From: Demequina rhizosphaerae
GTDB taxonomy: Bacteria; Actinomycetota; Actinomycetes; Actinomycetales; Demequinaceae
Reading direction: 5' to 3'
Length of the DNA: 64,000 nucleotides
Assembly: GCF_000971255.1 (NCBI RefSeq)
Contig: NZ_BBMC01000006.1
Span: 124,001-188,000 of the forward strand
Positions 5,567-63,890 of the stretch are shown piece by piece (position 1 is the first letter of the stretch; every line of letters starts with the position of its first letter). A model generated the notes under the pieces. That model made no database searches and was not told the DNA's origin. It was given only the letters and a program-made list of their open reading frames with translations. The translations under genes and the position numbers were made by a program.

Positions 5567-6133
5567 GTGGCCTTCGCTCCCCTTCACACCTCCAGACTCG
5601 TGCTCCGCCCGTTCACGGCGGCGGACGCCGAGGACTTCGCCGCGCGCCGCTCCGACCCCGAGACCGCCATGTACCAGGCCTGGCGGATCCCCTACTCGGT
5701 CGAGAAGGCGCTCGCCCTCATCGAGGAGAGCGAGAAGCACGACGGCCCGATGCCGGGGCACTGGTACCAGCTCGACGTGCAGCGCGTCGCCGACGGCCGC
5801 ACCGTGGGCGACGTCGCCGTGTACCTGCACGAGCACGGGCACACCGCGGAGATCGGCTACACCCTGCACAGCTGGGCGCGGCGCAAGGGGTACGCGACCG
5901 AGGCCGCCGCCGCGCTCATCGACCACCTCGTCGACGTCACCGGCGTGCACCGCGTCGAGGCGTCGACCCACCCCGCCAACGAGCGCTCGATCCAGGTGCT
6001 CAAGCGGCTCGGCTTCGAGGCCGAGGGCGTCAAGCGCGAGGCCTTCTGGGTCGAGGACGAGGTGTCCGACGACGCGATCTTCGGCCTGCTCGCACGGGAC
6101 TGGCGGTCGCGCCGCGACCTCCTGGGGATCTGA
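5567..6133 (+). CDS. GNAT acetyltransferase, RimJ/RimL-like
   Basis: The protein has 188 aa from the GTG at 5567; an ATG at 5546 would give 195 aa. TATCGT (5555-5560) ends 6 nt before the GTG, a leaderless-type promoter, which favours the shorter form. The N-terminus TSRLVLRPFTAADAEDF is typical of the Acetyltransf_3 group that acetylates protein N-termini. The acetyl-CoA loop is visible as HSWARRKGYATEAAAALI, and ASTHPANERSIQVLKRLGF is the usual C-terminal motif. The protein is cytosolic and its substrate is unknown. It is divergent from the siderophore protein gene and shares its short promoter region. Confidence 0.85.
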   Translation: MAFAPLHTSRLVLRPFTAADAEDFAARRSDPETAMYQAWRIPYSVEKALALIEESEKHDGPMPGHWYQLDVQRVADGRTVGDVAVYLHEHGHTAEIGYTLHSWARRKGYATEAAAALIDHLVDVTGVHRVEASTHPANERSIQVLKRLGFEAEGVKREAFWVEDEVSDDAIFGLLARDWRSRRDLLGI

Positions 6134-6154
6134 CTTCACGGAATCTTCACGGAA
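6134..6154. promoter_or_regulatory. tandem CTTCACGGAA repeat, likely OmpR-family operator
   Basis: CTTCACGGAA occurs twice (6134-6143 and 6145-6154) with an 11-bp period, one helical turn. This is how OmpR/PhoB-family dimers bind. It lies about 60 bp before the DUF2202 gene, and an OmpR-family regulator is encoded directly after that gene. Confidence 0.65.
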
Positions 6155-6216
6155 GCGCCCCGAGGCGCTTCACACGGCGGCGATGGACTGGGGTCATCCG
6201 AGGGAAGGAGACCCCG

Positions 6217-7026
6217 ATGACCACGCACACCACGCGCCTCGCGCTCACCGCCGCCGCGGCCGGAGCCGCGCTCCTCGCCGTCCCGGTCGCCGCCTGGGCG
6301 GGCGCCGGGAACGGCGGCAGCGACGACGACGCCGGGAACGGCACGCAGACGCGCATCGAGTCCGGGATGGGCATGATGAGCGGCTGGGGCCGCACCGACG
6401 ATGACGACGGCACCACCGGCCGACGCGGCGGCATGGGCATGGGCCGGTCCGCGGGCGCCGGCGCGGGCGCCGGCATGGGCGTCGGGGACGGCAGCTGCCT
6501 GGACGATGCGGTGGTCGAGGGCGACGCGACCGATGCCGACGCCGCCTCGCTCGCGGCGATGGCCGACGAGGAGCGCATGGCCCGCGACCTCTACCTCGAG
6601 CTCGCCGACGCCTGGGACCTGTCCACGTTCGACAGGATCGCGGCCGCGGAGGACCGCCACCTCGACGCTGTCGTGCGACTGGCCGACGCGCACGGGCTCG
6701 ACGACCCGACGGAGGACGCCGAGGCCGGCGTCTACGCCGACGCGGACATCCAGGCGCTGTACGACGAGCTGCTCGCGCAGGGCTCGGAGTCCGAGACCGC
6801 CGCGCTGGGGGTGGGCGCGCTCGTCGAGGAGACCGACATCGCGGACCTCCGGGCCCAGGACGTCGACTCCGACGCGATCGCCTCGACCTACGCGCGGCTC
6901 GAGCACGCGAGCGAGCACCACCTCGCCGCGTTCGTGCGGGCGCTCGACGCCGCCGGCGCCACGTACTCGGCATCGGTCCTGGATCCGGCGGAGGTGGAGG
7001 ACATCACGGGCGTCCCCGCTCCGTAG
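6217..7026 (+). CDS. DUF2202 ferritin-like secreted protein
   Basis: The protein has 269 aa. An N-terminal signal peptide (LALTAAAAGAALLAVPVAAWAGA) is followed by a disordered Gly/Met/Asp-rich stretch (about residues 30-95, with GMGMM and GMGMGRS), then an all-helical DUF2202 domain. The domain has the ferritin-like pattern MADEERMARDLYLEL, AAEDRHLDAV and EHASEHHLAAF, with Glu and His at metal-binding spacing. The Met-rich linker suggests contact with metal ions such as Cu(I). A clear SD (GGAAGGAG) precedes the ATG. The tandem repeat upstream and the two-component system downstream suggest that the system controls this gene. The biochemical role of DUF2202 is not established. Confidence 0.8.
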   Translation: MTTHTTRLALTAAAAGAALLAVPVAAWAGAGNGGSDDDAGNGTQTRIESGMGMMSGWGRTDDDDGTTGRRGGMGMGRSAGAGAGAGMGVGDGSCLDDAVVEGDATDADAASLAAMADEERMARDLYLELADAWDLSTFDRIAAAEDRHLDAVVRLADAHGLDDPTEDAEAGVYADADIQALYDELLAQGSESETAALGVGALVEETDIADLRAQDVDSDAIASTYARLEHASEHHLAAFVRALDAAGATYSASVLDPAEVEDITGVPAP

Positions 7027-7027
7027 G

Positions 7028-7723
7028 ATGACGAGCGTGGCGGGACGCACCGTGCTGGTGGTCGACGACGAGGAGAACATCCGTGGCCTCGTCGGCGGCT
7101 ACCTGCGCCGCGACGGCTTCGAGGTCGCGGAGGCCGCGAGCGGCGAGGACGCCCTCGCGGTCCTGTCGCGCGACCCCGTCGCCCTCGTCCTGCTCGACGT
7201 GCGGCTGCCCGGCATCGACGGCGTCGAGACCCTGCGCCGCATCCGCCGCACCTCGGACGTGCCCGTCCTCATGCTCACGGCCCGCGCCGAGGAGGCCGAC
7301 CGCATCGTCGGCCTCGAGGTGGGCGCGGACGACTACGTGACGAAGCCGTTCAGCCCGCGCGAGGTGGTCGCCCGCGTGCGGGCCATCCTGCGCCGCGGCG
7401 ACTCCGGGGGCCGCTCCCCCGACCGCCTCGACGTCGCGGACGTGAGCATCGACCTCGGCGGCCGCGAGGTCACCGTCGGCGGCGCCCCCGCGACGCTCAC
7501 CGCGCTCGAGTTCGACCTGCTCGCCGCGCTCGCCTCCGCGCCGGGCCGCGTCTTCACCCGCCGCCAGCTCATCGAGCGCGTGTGGGGCTGGGACTTCTTC
7601 GGCGACGAGCGCATCGTCGACGTGCACGTCCGGAAGCTGCGCCGCGCCCTCGGCGACGACGCCGAGCACCCGCGCCTGCTCCACACGGTGCGCGGCGTCG
7701 GCTACAAGCTGGCGACGCCGTGA
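7028..7723 (+). CDS. OmpR/PhoB-family response regulator
   Basis: The protein has 231 aa. The receiver domain (residues about 7-118) has the acidic pair D13-D14, the phospho-acceptor D57 in LLDVRLPGIDG, T84-region MLTARAEEADRI, and K in YVTKPFSPRE. The C-terminal winged helix has LTALEFDLLAALA, TRRQLIERVWG and VDVHVRKLRRAL. The start may be ATG 7028 or GTG 7037; TAGGAT (7024-7029) ends 7 nt before the GTG, so a leaderless GTG start is possible. The gene overlaps the histidine kinase gene by a GTGA junction. It is the likely reader of the tandem repeat at 6134-6154. Confidence 0.93.
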   Translation: MTSVAGRTVLVVDDEENIRGLVGGYLRRDGFEVAEAASGEDALAVLSRDPVALVLLDVRLPGIDGVETLRRIRRTSDVPVLMLTARAEEADRIVGLEVGADDYVTKPFSPREVVARVRAILRRGDSGGRSPDRLDVADVSIDLGGREVTVGGAPATLTALEFDLLAALASAPGRVFTRRQLIERVWGWDFFGDERIVDVHVRKLRRALGDDAEHPRLLHTVRGVGYKLATP

Positions 7724-59152: not shown

Positions 59153-59782
59153 GTGGACGGTGAGAGCCCCGGCGGGGCGCCACCGGAGGACGCCCAGGCA
59201 CGCGCCCGGGTGGACTCCGCCTTCGCGGCCCAGCCCCGCACGCGCTTCCTTCCCGAGGGCGCCCGCTTCGCGGCGGACGTCGATGCGCCCCTGCAGATCG
59301 GCTACGGCCAGACCAACAGCCAGCCCCGCACGGTCCGGGACATGCTGCACCTGCTCGACGTCCGGCGCGGGATGCGCGTGCTCGATGTGGGCGCGGGCTC
59401 GGGCTGGACGACGGCGCTGCTGGGGGAGCTGACCGGCCCGGAGGGATCCGTGCTCGGCACCGAGATCGTCCCCGAGCTCGTCGACTTCGGGTCCGCCAAC
59501 GTGGCGGGCGCCGGCGTGCCGTGGGCGCGCCTCGTGCCGGCCCTGCCCGGCGTGCTCGGCGCGCCGGACGAGGCGCCGTTCGACAGGATCCTGGTGTCCG
59601 CGATGGCGCGCGGGCTGCCGGTCGAGCTGGTCGCGCAGCTGCGTCCCGGCGGCGTGATGGTCCTCCCGTCCGACGGGACGATGCTGCGGGTGGTGCGCGG
59701 CTTCCCGCCCCGGGAGGATGTGACCGATGCGGAGGTCACCGAGCACGGCTCCTACCGCTTCGTGCCGCTGCTGGGCGGCTGA
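59153..59782 (+). CDS. protein-L-isoaspartate O-methyltransferase-like protein
   Basis: The protein has 209 aa. The family motif GYGQTNSQPRTVRDMLHLLD corresponds to GQTISQPxxV, and motif I is VLDVGAGSGWTTALLGELTG. VMVLPSDGTMLRV follows. PCMT enzymes methylate isoaspartate in damaged proteins for repair. The GTG start has a weak -10-like box, TGGACT, 6 nt upstream. A palindromic element follows at 59825. Confidence 0.87.
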   Translation: MDGESPGGAPPEDAQARARVDSAFAAQPRTRFLPEGARFAADVDAPLQIGYGQTNSQPRTVRDMLHLLDVRRGMRVLDVGAGSGWTTALLGELTGPEGSVLGTEIVPELVDFGSANVAGAGVPWARLVPALPGVLGAPDEAPFDRILVSAMARGLPVELVAQLRPGGVMVLPSDGTMLRVVRGFPPREDVTDAEVTEHGSYRFVPLLGG

Positions 59783-59976: not shown

Positions 59977-60366
59977 GTTGGTGGGTGGTTCGGAGAATCC
60001 TGGTACCTGGGGTGACACCCGGGGTCGGATGTCCGTTTCCCACGGCGACCCGTGCGATTTCCCACGGCACGGCCGCCGCAACGCGATCTGCCAGGCACGA
60101 GACGTCCGCTACACGGCCGGCGGCTTCAGCAACAGCATCCGCAGGGAGGATCGGTCGGATCCGTCAGCCATGCCGCCGGCTGGCCGTCAACCAGGTCAAG
60201 CTCGCCACCCCGGAGCAGGTCTGCCGGTGGAACAACAGCGCCCGCACCGCGGGATCGGGACGCGGACCGGCTCCAAGTCGAGGATGCTCACCGCGCTGAC
60301 CTCAGTCGTCCCAAGCCGGCAGCTGCCGTACAGGAAGGCTGAGCGGAACGAAACTCAGGCCGATTC
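59977..60366 (-). repeat. repeat X, copy 1 (390 bp)
   Basis: It aligns without gaps to 63501-63890. The first 68 bp are identical; the rest has many substitutions. Both copies end on the minus strand at a terminator hairpin 6-90 bp further on. In one minus frame, after a shared TGA, about 50 codons read AVAEAAGRVADV then GNGHPTPGVTPGTRILRTTH. Differences between copies there fall largely at third positions, a hint of former or present coding. Confidence 0.8.
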
Positions 60367-60657
60367 ATATACCGCTTCGCAGCCGCCACCTCACACCTCC
60401 ACAAGCACTCTCACCATTGGACAGGACTCACAGAAGAAACGGACCAAGGAACGGGGGGCAGGACAATCCCAATCATGGAAAGGGCCTGCCCTGGAATCGA
60501 TTGACTCTGACCGCCACGCCCGGGGGTCCTCCCGGTGTCCAGGAAACCCGGTCAGGCTCCACACGCCCTCTAGGAAACACTGGGCGCTTCAATCGACCAT
60601 CTTGAGCACTCGGAAGTCATCCGTGCGAGGGCTAAGCCGGCGTCGCAGGGCAAATCG
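60367..60657. other. unique spacer, no feature seen
   Basis: About 290 bp between repeat X1 and the next minus-strand gene. GC is lower than the chromosome average. I see no open reading frame with coding character, no promoter I trust and no match to the other repeats. Confidence 0.5.
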
Positions 60658-61299
60658 TCATTGGCTCGCCTCGTAGCGATCGCGGTGCTCCGCGAGCTTC
60701 GCCACTTCGTCGATGCCCGCAACGAACTCATGACCGCCAACGACGAGTTGCTGGAGGTCATCGTCGACGCGGCCGAACTCGACTTCTTGCCATTGATGGT
60801 TCGCCGGACTCCTCAACGGCCTGAAGCCGACGGCCCAATACCTGGCGACGAGAACGCCATCAGGGCCATACCCGAGTAGGTAGTGGCCGGAGCGCCTGAG
60901 GGCCCGCGGGCAGAGCAGCCATTGGGCGATCGAATATTGACGCGAGGCGATAACGAACCACGCTCGCGCGCGCGAAGTCGCCGCTCCACACGGACAGTGC
61001 GCCATCAAAGCGCCGCCGGTAACGGAGAGTAAGCATCCGTCGAGCGCCTTTCGCCGGGATCTCGGCCCTCTCCGCGTGCTTATCCACCAGATGAGTCCTC
61101 CAAGGTGATCCGACACCCAAGTCCAGTCAGGCCCGAAGTCCGAATACGAGGTTCGGTACTCCTCCGAGGGAATCAGCGATGTCTGCTGACCTGCCCCGAT
61201 GAATTGGTCCACTTCGGCTGCGAGTAGTTCGGGATCTCGGGGGCCTCGAGGGCGATCTGGACCGGTCCAGCCAGAGTATTGGTAGTCACTCTCATCCAC
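60658..61299 (-). CDS. hypothetical protein of the Y-repeat array
   Basis: The ORF has 213 codons from a GTG that overlaps the end of the preceding ORF. The first 38 codons lie in repeat Y (copy A); the same frame in copy B gives a similar peptide, but in copy C it is broken by a stop. The C-terminal half has coding-like composition (GHYLLGYGPDGVLVARYWAV, DEVAKLAEHRDRYEAS). An internal start with the SD-like GGAGGAG near 61157 is therefore possible. There are several Cys (HCPCG). I recognise no family; immunity-type proteins are one option, unproven. Confidence 0.45.
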   Translation of the reverse strand: MDESDYQYSGWTGPDRPRGPRDPELLAAEVDQFIGAGQQTSLIPSEEYRTSYSDFGPDWTWVSDHLGGLIWWISTRRGPRSRRKALDGCLLSVTGGALMAHCPCGAATSRARAWFVIASRQYSIAQWLLCPRALRRSGHYLLGYGPDGVLVARYWAVGFRPLRSPANHQWQEVEFGRVDDDLQQLVVGGHEFVAGIDEVAKLAEHRDRYEASQ

Positions 61300-61385
61300 C
61301 CCCTCTCACTTCAGACCGGCTGCCGTGACGGGGTGTCGTGGCTGCCTGCTCGGCACAGTAGCGCGCGAACGCCGCCGGGGTCTGC
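61188..61385 (-). repeat. repeat Y, copy A
   Basis: Imperfect direct repeat with copies B (61531-61704) and C (62461-62659). On the minus strand it carries the tail of one ORF (ARYCAEQAATTP), a Shine-Dalgarno GAGGGGG, and an ATG at 61295 that starts MRVTTNTLAGPVQIALEAPE (40 codons in this copy). So the repeat spans a gene-gene junction. Confidence 0.85.
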
Positions 61386-61530
61386 ATCAGCAGTCCCGTA
61401 ACTGCGAAGATCGCTCGAGACGACGGGTCACGAACAGCCCGCCTCCTCTCCTCGCCATGTGCCCACTCGCCGACAGCCAAGTTCCCTCGGCCCGTTCCAG
61501 AACTGCTCGCCGGCCTCTCACAGGGCACCT
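61386..61530. other. short unique cassette between Y copies A and B
   Basis: This 145-bp stretch is unique. On the minus strand two frames stay open through it from copy B: one of 83 codons (61387-61638) and one of 116 codons (61292-61642) that ends inside copy A with YCAEQAATTP. It looks like the shrunken remains of a gene cassette. Confidence 0.4.
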
Positions 61531-61704
61531 GACCTGCCCCGATGATTTGGTCCACGTCGACTGCGAGTGGGTCGTGATTCCGGGGCCCTCGAGGGCGATC
61601 TGGACTGGTCCAGCCAGCGTGTTGGTAGTCACCCTCATCCACCCCCTCTCACGTCAGACAGGCTGCCGTGGCACGGGTGTCGTAGCTGCCTGCTCGGCAC
61701 AGTA
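61531..61704 (-). repeat. repeat Y, copy B
   Basis: Same layout as copy A. The ATG-initiated frame MRVTTNTLAGPVQIALEGPG differs from copy A mainly by synonymous changes in its first half. At 61702 it runs directly into a partial copy of repeat X at the shared GTA, a recombination-type joint. Confidence 0.85.
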
Positions 61705-61850
61705 CGGCGGTGGAGCAACCAGCAACTGCGCGGCGAACTCGGGACGCGGACCCGCTCCAGGCCGTGGGTGGCTACCGCACCGACCTCGAACCATCCCGCC
61801 GGCACCAGCCGGACAGGAAGACTGAGCGGAACGAAAGTCAGGCCGATTCA
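61702..61850 (-). repeat. repeat X, partial copy 3 (149 bp)
   Basis: It aligns without gaps to 63742-63890; the last 77 bp (61774-61850) are identical. On the minus strand it begins ATGAATCGGCCTGACTTTCG and its frame runs into copy B, ending YCAEQAATTPVPRQPV. The other 241 bp of X are missing. Confidence 0.85.
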
Positions 61851-62447
61851 TCCGACCGCGAATGGCACCAGCAATAGTCCACATGCAAGCGTGGTGCCCC
61901 ACGTTGACGGCGCACGAAGGACGCCCATAGAACCGCTTAGGGTCAGCCTCAGAGAACGCCTGTTCGGAACCCCGCGGATGAACGACGCCCCGTCGCCGTA
62001 TGCAATTACTGGCACTCCGAGACTTTGCGCCAGATCGTGCGCTGCTTGAACCTTGTCTCCGACATGAGATGCCTTGCCACGGGATGCATCGGTAAACACG
62101 ACGGTCGTGTCGCCCAACTCGATGCCGATGCCGCTCGCCAAGGGAGGAAGGTGAAGCCGCGTGATCGCGCCAATTGGAACTCGCTCCGCAATCAATAGCG
62201 CGCGTATCTCAATGTCATCGCCTGAGAGTCGCACTCCGCGCCTTCGGATGGATCCGAAGAACACCCCGGCAAGTAGCGCGAGCACAAGAGCAGGCAACTT
62301 CCCGATCCCCGGCGGGAGCGTCGCAGCCATCCCTACGTACACCACGAGCAGCAGCACTGATCCAACGGCGGTGCTCACCCGCTCTTGGATCGTTGGGCGC
62401 ACCAGCCAGACGTGCGCCTCTTCCAAGACACCGACGCCGTCACTCAT
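61848..62447 (-). CDS. small membrane protein with PH-like domain
   Basis: The protein has 199 aa. Two helices at about 25-67 (VGSVLLLVVYVGMAATLP and LPALVLALLAGVFFGSI) precede a domain with VRLSGDDIEIRALLIAERVPIGAITRLHL and TTVVFTDASRGK, like bacterial PH domains. A last hydrophobic stretch is at the C-terminus. It would sit in the membrane with the PH-like part in the cytosol. Its ATG overlaps the stop of the 42-codon ORF begun in repeat Y copy C (ATGAGTGA), so it is translated with that peptide. It fills one cassette of the Y array. Confidence 0.65.
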   Translation of the reverse strand: MSDGVGVLEEAHVWLVRPTIQERVSTAVGSVLLLVVYVGMAATLPPGIGKLPALVLALLAGVFFGSIRRRGVRLSGDDIEIRALLIAERVPIGAITRLHLPPLASGIGIELGDTTVVFTDASRGKASHVGDKVQAAHDLAQSLGVPVIAYGDGASFIRGVPNRRSLRLTLSGSMGVLRAPSTWGTTLACGLLLVPFAVG

Positions 62448-62568
62448 CGAAAATTCCAGCGACCTGCCCCGATAACTTGGTCCACGTCGACTGCGAGTTG
62501 ATCGTGATCTCGGGGGCCTCCAGGACGATCTGGACTGGTTCAGTCAGAGTGGTGGTACTCACCCTCAT
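62440..62568 (-). CDS. short leader-type ORF in repeat Y copy C
   Basis: The ORF has 42 codons and reads MRVSTTTLTEPVQIVLEAPE then a polar end, IFDE. Its SD (GAGCGGG in this copy, GAGGGGG in the others) and start are conserved in all three Y copies, and substitutions keep the frame open. Its stop overlaps the start of the PH-like gene. It may be a leader peptide or the stub of a gene whose remainder was replaced. Confidence 0.35.
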   Translation of the reverse strand: MRVSTTTLTEPVQIVLEAPEITINSQSTWTKLSGQVAGIFDE

Positions 62569-62659
62569 CCACCCGCTCTCACGTCAGACCGGCTCCGGTG
62601 ACCCGGGTGTCGCAGTCGCATGCTCGGCACAGTAGCGCGCGGATGCCGCCGAGGTCCGC
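62461..62659 (-). repeat. repeat Y, copy C
   Basis: Third copy, about 80% like A and B by eye. The upstream ORF tail here reads ARYCAEHATATPGSPEPV. On its right side it joins the truncated transposase gene, with no target duplication or inverted ends visible. Confidence 0.85.
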
Positions 62660-63256
62660 GTCTTGCCGTTCAACGAGATCCCCATCGCCGAGGGCACGCT
62701 CCGCATCGCCTTCGCCGCCACGGACCCGCGTGGCGGAGTCTCATGCCCACTGCGCGAGCAGGTCGTCGCGCAGATCGAGGACGCCAAGCTTCGCAACAAG
62801 CTCACCGACCGCATGAACGACGGCAAGACCCGCCGCCGCATCACCAAGCCCCCCGTCATGCCCGGTCCGATCTGCACCAGTCCGCAACTGACGCACAAGG
62901 TCGGGCTCGACGACACGACCGGCAAGTACTACCAGGACTACGCCTACAAGTCGCCCAAGTGGTACAAGATGTACGGCCAGCGCAACCAGGTCGAGACGTT
63001 CAACAAGGACGTGAAGGCCAACGGCATGAGCGACACCAAGCGTCGCCGCGTCCGCGGCTTCGCCAAGCAGGGCATCCTCGCCGCCATGTTCTCCGCCGCC
63101 ACCAACGTCAAGCGCATCAACGCGTTCCTCGCCGTCCAGCGCGCCAACGCACAGACCAGCCCCAAGGACCCCGGACCGTCCGGCCATCCAGGCCGCGGCA
63201 ACGGCGCCTCGGTCCTCGGCGAGGACCTCTCGCCACCCGAACAGCTCGCCGCGTAG
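62645..63256 (+). pseudogene. 3' fragment of a DDE transposase
   Basis: About 200 C-terminal codons remain, open from an in-frame TAG at 62633 to 63256. YGQRNQVETFNKDVKANG holds the last acidic catalytic residue (Glu) and RRRVRGFAKQGILAAMFSAATNVKRINAFL matches the end of IS1182/ISNCY-like transposases. The part with the first two Asp residues is missing. No start codon with an SD is seen and no terminal inverted repeats were found. It is probably an inactive remnant left by an insertion next to repeat Y. Confidence 0.65.
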
Positions 63257-63500: not shown

Positions 63501-63890
63501 GTTGGTGGGTGGTTCGGAGAATCCTGGTACCTGGGGTGACACCCGGGGTCGGATGTCCGTTTCCCACGACGTGCGACGCGATTTCCCACGGTTCGACCGC
63601 CGCACTGCGATCTACCAGGAACGCGACGTCTTCGACGCGGCGGGCGACCTCGGCGACAGCAACCGCCGTGACCATCGGTCCGATCGGTCAGCGCAGCCGG
63701 TGGCGGAACCTCAGGCAGGTCGAGCCCGCCACCCCGAGTGCGTACGGCGGCCGGGTAGCCAGCGCCTGCCCGGCGGGCTCGGGATGCACACCCGCTGCAG
63801 ACCGAGGCTGCCGACCGCACCGACCTCGAACCATCCCGCCGGCACCAGCCGGACAGGAAGACTGAGCGGAACGAAAGTCAGGCCGATTCA
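63501..63890 (-). repeat. repeat X, copy 2 (390 bp)
   Basis: Full-length partner of 59977-60366. Its minus frame after the shared TGA reads AVAEVARRVEDVAFL and then the identical GNGHPTPGVTPGTRILRTTH block. CGTGGGAAA occurs twice within about 25 bp in both copies (once in the variable part, once in the identical block), possibly protein-binding sites. The remaining 110 bp to the window end show no clear gene. Confidence 0.8.

Follow-up and report, generated by a model that had tools for sequence, protein, structure and literature searches.

Orphan CDI and Rhs loci contain C-terminal toxin tips that are detached from their carrier gene and accompanied by cognate immunity genes, in sets that differ between relatives (Poole et al. 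2011, PMC3150448). Insertion sequences (IS) that disrupt orphan genes have been noted in such loci, and orphan CdiA-CT regions mostly lack translation starts (PMC3150448). A general question is how the tips of polymorphic toxins shuffle between loci and persist once they are detached from a carrier gene. In Escherichia coli, rhs loci carry the ISAs1-like H-repeats, so that an IS-like element is associated with Rhs tips. These loci differ from the one described here in that they hold a full Rhs gene and that their element belongs to another transposase family.

Here, we analyzed a stretch of 64,000 nucleotides of Demequina rhizosphaerae (genome G000), hereafter the window, and compared the array found in it with other genomes, including that of Demequina maris NBRC 109392 (G044). 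Like the orphan Rhs/CDI modules described previously (PMC3150448), those of Demequina consist of detached tips and immunity genes, in varying sets, behind a shared 5' block that would permit recombination. However, this 5' block is the end of an IS3-family element and not a stem (VENN or Rhs core), and the tail of the IS may offer a start. Furthermore, no match to the Rhs core was obtained in D. rhizosphaerae, D. maris, or G009, three of the four carrier genomes; the fourth, G057, has one on another contig. Rhs-core arrays occur in the same genus, in G003 (L174) and G016 (L170), and include related families (the TNT pair and a homologue of one gene of the window). The orphans of these arrays carry an Rhs-core fragment, whereas here an IS end stands in its place. 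Our literature search found no IS3-ended toxin arrays, which is no proof of absence.

We propose, with a probability of about 0.6, that the locus is a mostly decayed orphan toxin/immunity array of the Rhs/CDI type, in which each recognizable module starts at the right terminus of an IS3 element and were rearranged by recombination between IS ends and deletion adjacent to the IS.

The repeats are the right ends of an IS3-family element

The initial annotation had described three ~0.2-kb direct repeats, each with a YCAEQAATTP-type tail and a Shine-Dalgarno-like stretch, separated by unrelated DNA. All of this was confirmed, at the coordinates given there. The repeats (A, B, and C; Table 1) are 74-85% identical to the repeat reference copy, and six copies were found in the genome of D. 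rhizosphaerae. They represent right ends of an insertion sequence of the IS3 family, and each comprises the last codons of OrfB, a tail of ~115 bp, and the terminal repeat. YCAEQAATTP is the end of OrfB, the short ORF behind it lies in the tail, and the outer boundaries of the repeats are transposon termini. Plain IS debris lacking a conserved reading frame, which had been set against the initial proposal, is therefore a correct description of the repeat taken alone, but not of the cassettes.

A complete copy of the element is present at locus L008 of the same genome. Its OrfA (6766-7062) overlaps OrfB (5894-6772) by a few bases and matches HTH_Tnp_1. OrfB contains an rve (DDE) core and an HTH_21 domain, and matches the IS3 equivalog (NCBIfam NF033516) at 2e-66, with 224.7 bits for a cut-off of 160. 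The ends are inverted and of the TG...CA type (IRL TGTCCTGCCCC, IRR TGACCTGCCCC), and the sequence begins with TGTCCTGCCCC and finishes with GGGGCAGGTCA. A copy lying between unrelated genes of D. maris (L027) has a 4-bp GGCC target duplication on both sides. The right boundary defined in this way coincides exactly with the point at which repeats A, B, and C end. The organization in OrfA and OrfB, the rve domain, the TG...CA inverted ends, and the 4-bp duplication are common to the IS3 family, to which we assign the element. Two features set it apart from the rest of the family: toxin modules are associated with its right end, and the subfamily was detected in Demequina alone, with no match outside the genus above the threshold used among 396 genomes of the order.

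Repeat B resembles the complete IS copies more closely than it resembles A or C. Hence, it is unlikely that the three repeats are simple tandem duplicates of one another. In G057 (L029:6237-7726), the right terminus of the IS is itself duplicated in tandem over 45 bp, and two immunity-like genes each lie near an IS remnant.

Table 1. Features of the array in the window and the complete IS copy of the same genome
Feature	Position	Strand	Remarks
Protein methyltransferase gene, flanking landmark	59153..59782	+	D. maris orthologue beside array; four other species have it near tRNA-Leu and the FHA gene
D-unit 1, 392-bp non-coding repeat	59977..60368	+	Right after terminator hairpin
Left-end remnant of the same IS (IRL TGTCCTGCCCCCCG and OrfA start)	60370..60465	-	98% to IS positions 8-103
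Module A, frameshifted immunity gene	60658..61090	-	103 residues 74% to L008 148-aa immunity protein, 1e-54; 5' part out of frame
Module A, toxin-tip end (last 32 residues)	61091..61186	-	Abuts IS terminus; 75% to L008 tip C terminus, 2e-14
Repeat A, IS3 right end (OrfB end, tail, terminal repeat)	61187..61398	-	Outer terminus 61187; 89% to complete IS in L008
Remnant between A and B, no assignment	61399..61529	-	Based on the sequence and its listed ORFs
Repeat B, IS3 right end	61530..61704	-	Outer terminus 61530; 98% to complete IS
Partial D-unit (right part)	61702..61851	+	Abuts 3' end of 199-aa gene; 87% to D-unit 2
Module C, 199-aa membrane protein	61848..62447	-	Stop codon inside D-unit end; homologues in G047 (1e-21) and G016 (6e-6)
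Short ORF of repeat C (42 aa)	62440..62568	-	36 codons of IS tail and 6 residues; stop overlaps 199-aa gene start (ATGA)
Repeat C, IS3 right end	62460..62663	-	Outer terminus 62460; 87% to complete IS
DDE-type transposase, C-terminal 197 residues	62663..63256	+	82% to residues 467-663 of full-length L026 protein; weak DDE_Tnp_1_6 match
D-unit 2	63501..63890	+	100% identical to D. maris copy
Complete IS copy	L008 5770-7123	-	1354 bp

Modules in the window

The 213-codon ORF (60658-61299, minus strand) had been regarded as one cassette gene, which was not borne out. It is a composite, in which IS tail makes up residues 1-38, the end of the L008 toxin tip is matched by residues 38-69, and the immunity protein of that locus by residues 109-211; the stretch between these two matches is out of frame. 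The immunity gene has a distant relative in G057 (2e-8).

Module C was described initially as a membrane "PH-like" gene coupled to the short ORF. The overlap and the membrane protein are there, but the "PH-like" label is unproven, since the 199-aa protein has no Pfam match and its single-sequence structure model (pLDDT 43) is too poor for use. Its homologue in G016 sits in an Rhs tip/immunity array, after an Rhs-core fragment with its tip. Module C probably encodes an orphan immunity protein. Judging from the sequence, the module copy of the window is probably non-functional, with module A frameshifted and module C lacking a toxin.

Modules behind the IS right end at other loci

It is well supported that toxin tips and/or immunity genes directly follow the right end of this IS at several loci, in four species. 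In L008, the complete IS is followed by an intact module, with a tip of 211 aa and an immunity protein of 148 aa. A degenerate tip that follows a 2247-aa Rhs gene of G003 shares 40% identity with the L008 tip along 55 residues; the L008 tip has no match in Pfam, NCBIfam, or plasmids, and its PDB matches are at chance level only. At a second locus of the same genome (L007), a Tox-REase-7 domain (3e-14) lies directly after the IS right end and is accompanied by a HEAT-like partner; a toxin of this type is also paired with a HEAT-repeat protein in Aeromicrobium. In D. maris, at the locus matching that of the window (L028), a TNT domain (2e-29) lies directly behind the IS end, and its immunity gene has a relative in the Rhs-core TNT module of G003 (8e-11). 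In G009 (L030), a tip and immunity pair lies directly behind a diverged IS (72% DNA identity); both members have their homologues side by side in a pair on a Cronobacter plasmid, in an orphan-immunity region (1e-12 and 1e-7). Finally, an immunity homologue follows an IS remnant in G057. The pairs of L007, L008, L028, and L030 touch or overlap at the stop and start codons, and conserved pairs occur elsewhere.

These modules thus include recognized toxin tips without a stem, with the immunity gene directly downstream, as in described orphan modules. Unlike those, they do not follow a full Rhs/CDI gene and carry no stem fragment at the 5' end, and the best reading is that they share the IS end as a common 5' block in place of Rhs-core fragments. 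The orphan array with shared ends proposed initially therefore stands, except that the shared end is that of an IS3 element rather than a toxin stem or a conserved N terminus. The initial report of no known toxin domain remains correct for the window, which holds only the 32-aa tip remnant, but domains sharing the repeat exist elsewhere in the same genome (Tox-REase-7) and in D. maris (TNT).

The interest of these observations is that a single IS end recurs beside toxin/immunity modules that are unrelated to each other, at few loci and in one genus. Tox-REase-7 was found in 2 and TNT in 4 of the 44 Demequina genomes, and the sole Tox-REase-7 copy of D. rhizosphaerae and the sole TNT copy of D. 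maris are both at the IS end. As a control, we examined distant IS3 relatives from other bacteria, and none of the 28 ORFs that follow them had a toxin domain. If modules made up 0.5-1% of sites, a fraction that is assumed and not measured, the chance that at least 4 of 9 right ends meet one would be roughly 1e-7 to 1e-6. No toxin module was seen behind repeat B or behind the right end of the D. maris L027 copy. The independently verified module families number only ~4, a small count from one genus. We also observed lipoprotein and trypsin-like genes behind an IS right end at L010:4689-6208, the lipoprotein gene being a possible orphan immunity gene; L010 may thus be a further right end with no toxin module.

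Variation of the locus across Demequina

The module content at the matching locus differs between species, as the initial annotation had anticipated for its cassettes. In D. maris, an array of ~7 kb with the TNT and a second toxin-like gene lies between the methyltransferase gene and an FHA gene, the latter beside a tRNA-Leu(CAG) that marks the locus (L008:8924-9010, L028:3833-3919, L200:8197-8283). In four other species (G024, G022, G019, and G041), the methyltransferase gene and the FHA gene beside this tRNA are close together and the array is absent. The second toxin-like protein of D. maris (L028:7718-8587) has an apparent signal peptide of its own, and part of it is similar (6e-13) to a stretch of the G024 Rhs locus. 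As annotated, its 5' end runs into the TNT immunity gene, which makes its true start uncertain.

The two flanks that are joined in D. maris are on different contigs in D. rhizosphaerae, each with its own IS-linked module, which points to rearrangement. At L008, the IS sits inside a transposase gene, has the toxin on its right side, and the other half of the transposase gene is missing there. The toxin-linked IS copies of L008 and G009 have no target duplication. Two IS copies of D. rhizosphaerae are split at contig ends and their left flanks cannot be paired. Four contigs of this genome (C4, C7, C10, and C13) end inside the IS3 element, so that IS copies were collapsed or split in the assembly.

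Possible origins of the array

The distribution of the modules is consistent with a process in three steps. Copies of the IS would have landed near toxin tips and become shared blocks of homology. Homologous recombination between IS copies could then have swapped the DNA beyond the right end. Finally, deletions starting at the IS terminus would have removed the toxin from its 5' side, leaving the immunity gene. The tip residues that are left after the IS terminus, 211 in L008, 32 in module A, and ~6 in module C, form a series that fits such IS-adjacent deletion, with the toxin lost 5' first. The absence of target duplications at L008 and G009, the interrupted transposase gene, and the flanks on different contigs would argue for recombination, although age or deletion can also remove target duplications. 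A genus in which one IS repeatedly supplies the shared 5' block, in genomes where no Rhs core is detected, is a clear natural test of such a process, because module exchange should track the IS copies.

Alternatively, the region beside tRNA-Leu could be a landing site that collects IS, transposons, and dead toxin modules, the IS end having no role in the movement or expression of modules. We consider such neutral accumulation unlikely, though the most serious competitor to recombination and deletion at IS ends. Mobile remnants are indeed many (the DDE transposase, the D-units, an integrase fragment), other IS3-type transposases also occur near Rhs loci in Demequina, the modules of the window are broken, and the tail ORF is free of coding constraint. 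Against it, the neighboring modules stand to the right of the IS and share its orientation, in four species and for several unrelated toxin families. Moreover, neither the L007 copy nor the G009 copy lies at this tRNA locus, and no toxin was seen beyond the four left ends examined (L025, L026, L027, and L030). Left of the G009 IS copy, a giant secreted stem gave no match to the Rhs loci compared.

The consistent position of modules beyond the right end, the intact pairs after a complete IS in L008 and G009, and the related modules at two loci of one genome could also suggest one-ended capture. The transposase would pair the left end with a surrogate right end past the module and move the IS together with toxin and immunity gene, just as ISEcp1 mobilizes resistance genes. 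This is improbable, since we found neither a surrogate right end, when searching for sequences close to the terminal consensus, nor a duplication flanking the whole unit, and since the left flank of the L008 copy is one half of an interrupted gene whose other half is absent on the far side.

The IS tail and its short ORF

In our preferred reading of recombination and deletion at IS ends, the tail of the element may allow the translation of a detached tip, because it holds a Shine-Dalgarno-like sequence and has start codons that could be used in two frames. Toxins are fused to it in two different frames; Tox-REase-7 and TNT are in-frame fusions to the frame of the short ORF. One could go further and suppose that detached tips would be transcribed from the IS and receive their start codon from it. 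Together with the toxin and its immunity gene, the IS might then form an addiction module that stabilizes the transposon or the island without any secretion stem. We give this idea a very low probability.

The short ORF itself is IS tail and not a conserved protein. The initial annotation had noted that changes in its first half are synonymous between repeats A and B, and our counts of codon changes agree for this pair (4 synonymous, 0 non-synonymous). The other pairs lack a synonymous excess (A versus C, 4:5; B versus C, 2:5; A versus the G057 copy, 4:10) and the ATG is missing from the D. maris and G057 copies, so we reject coding constraint beyond the A/B pair. The idea that the toxin system itself has the repeats as its conserved coding ends, an upstream tail and a conserved N terminus, could draw on the A/B pair and on the in-frame fusions. 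It is refuted by the D. maris L027 copy, a complete IS that terminates in this very sequence, lies between unrelated genes, and is flanked by a target duplication; the loss of the ATG, the codon counts, and the fusions in two frames also speak against it. Caution is advisable in general, as a short conserved ORF at a junction of this kind can turn out to be the tail of a transposon.

Other mobile elements and repeats

The DDE-type transposase fragment of the window belongs to a three-gene element at L026:3640-8344, which encodes a 663-aa DDE-type transposase and proteins of 400 and 505 aa, possibly recombinases. Another fragment of the DDE gene lies beside tRNA-Leu (L008:7007-8674). We found no Rfam match to structured RNA in L009 (the window from ~59 kb on), L028, or L007. 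The D-unit, a non-coding repeat of ~390 bp with sharp ends, has no match in plasmids, and further copies are present at L007:4306-4694 and L028:8940-9329. Two copies lie just after terminator hairpins, one copy is shared without a mismatch by two species, and in several copies the right end of the unit faces the 3' side of toxin/immunity modules.
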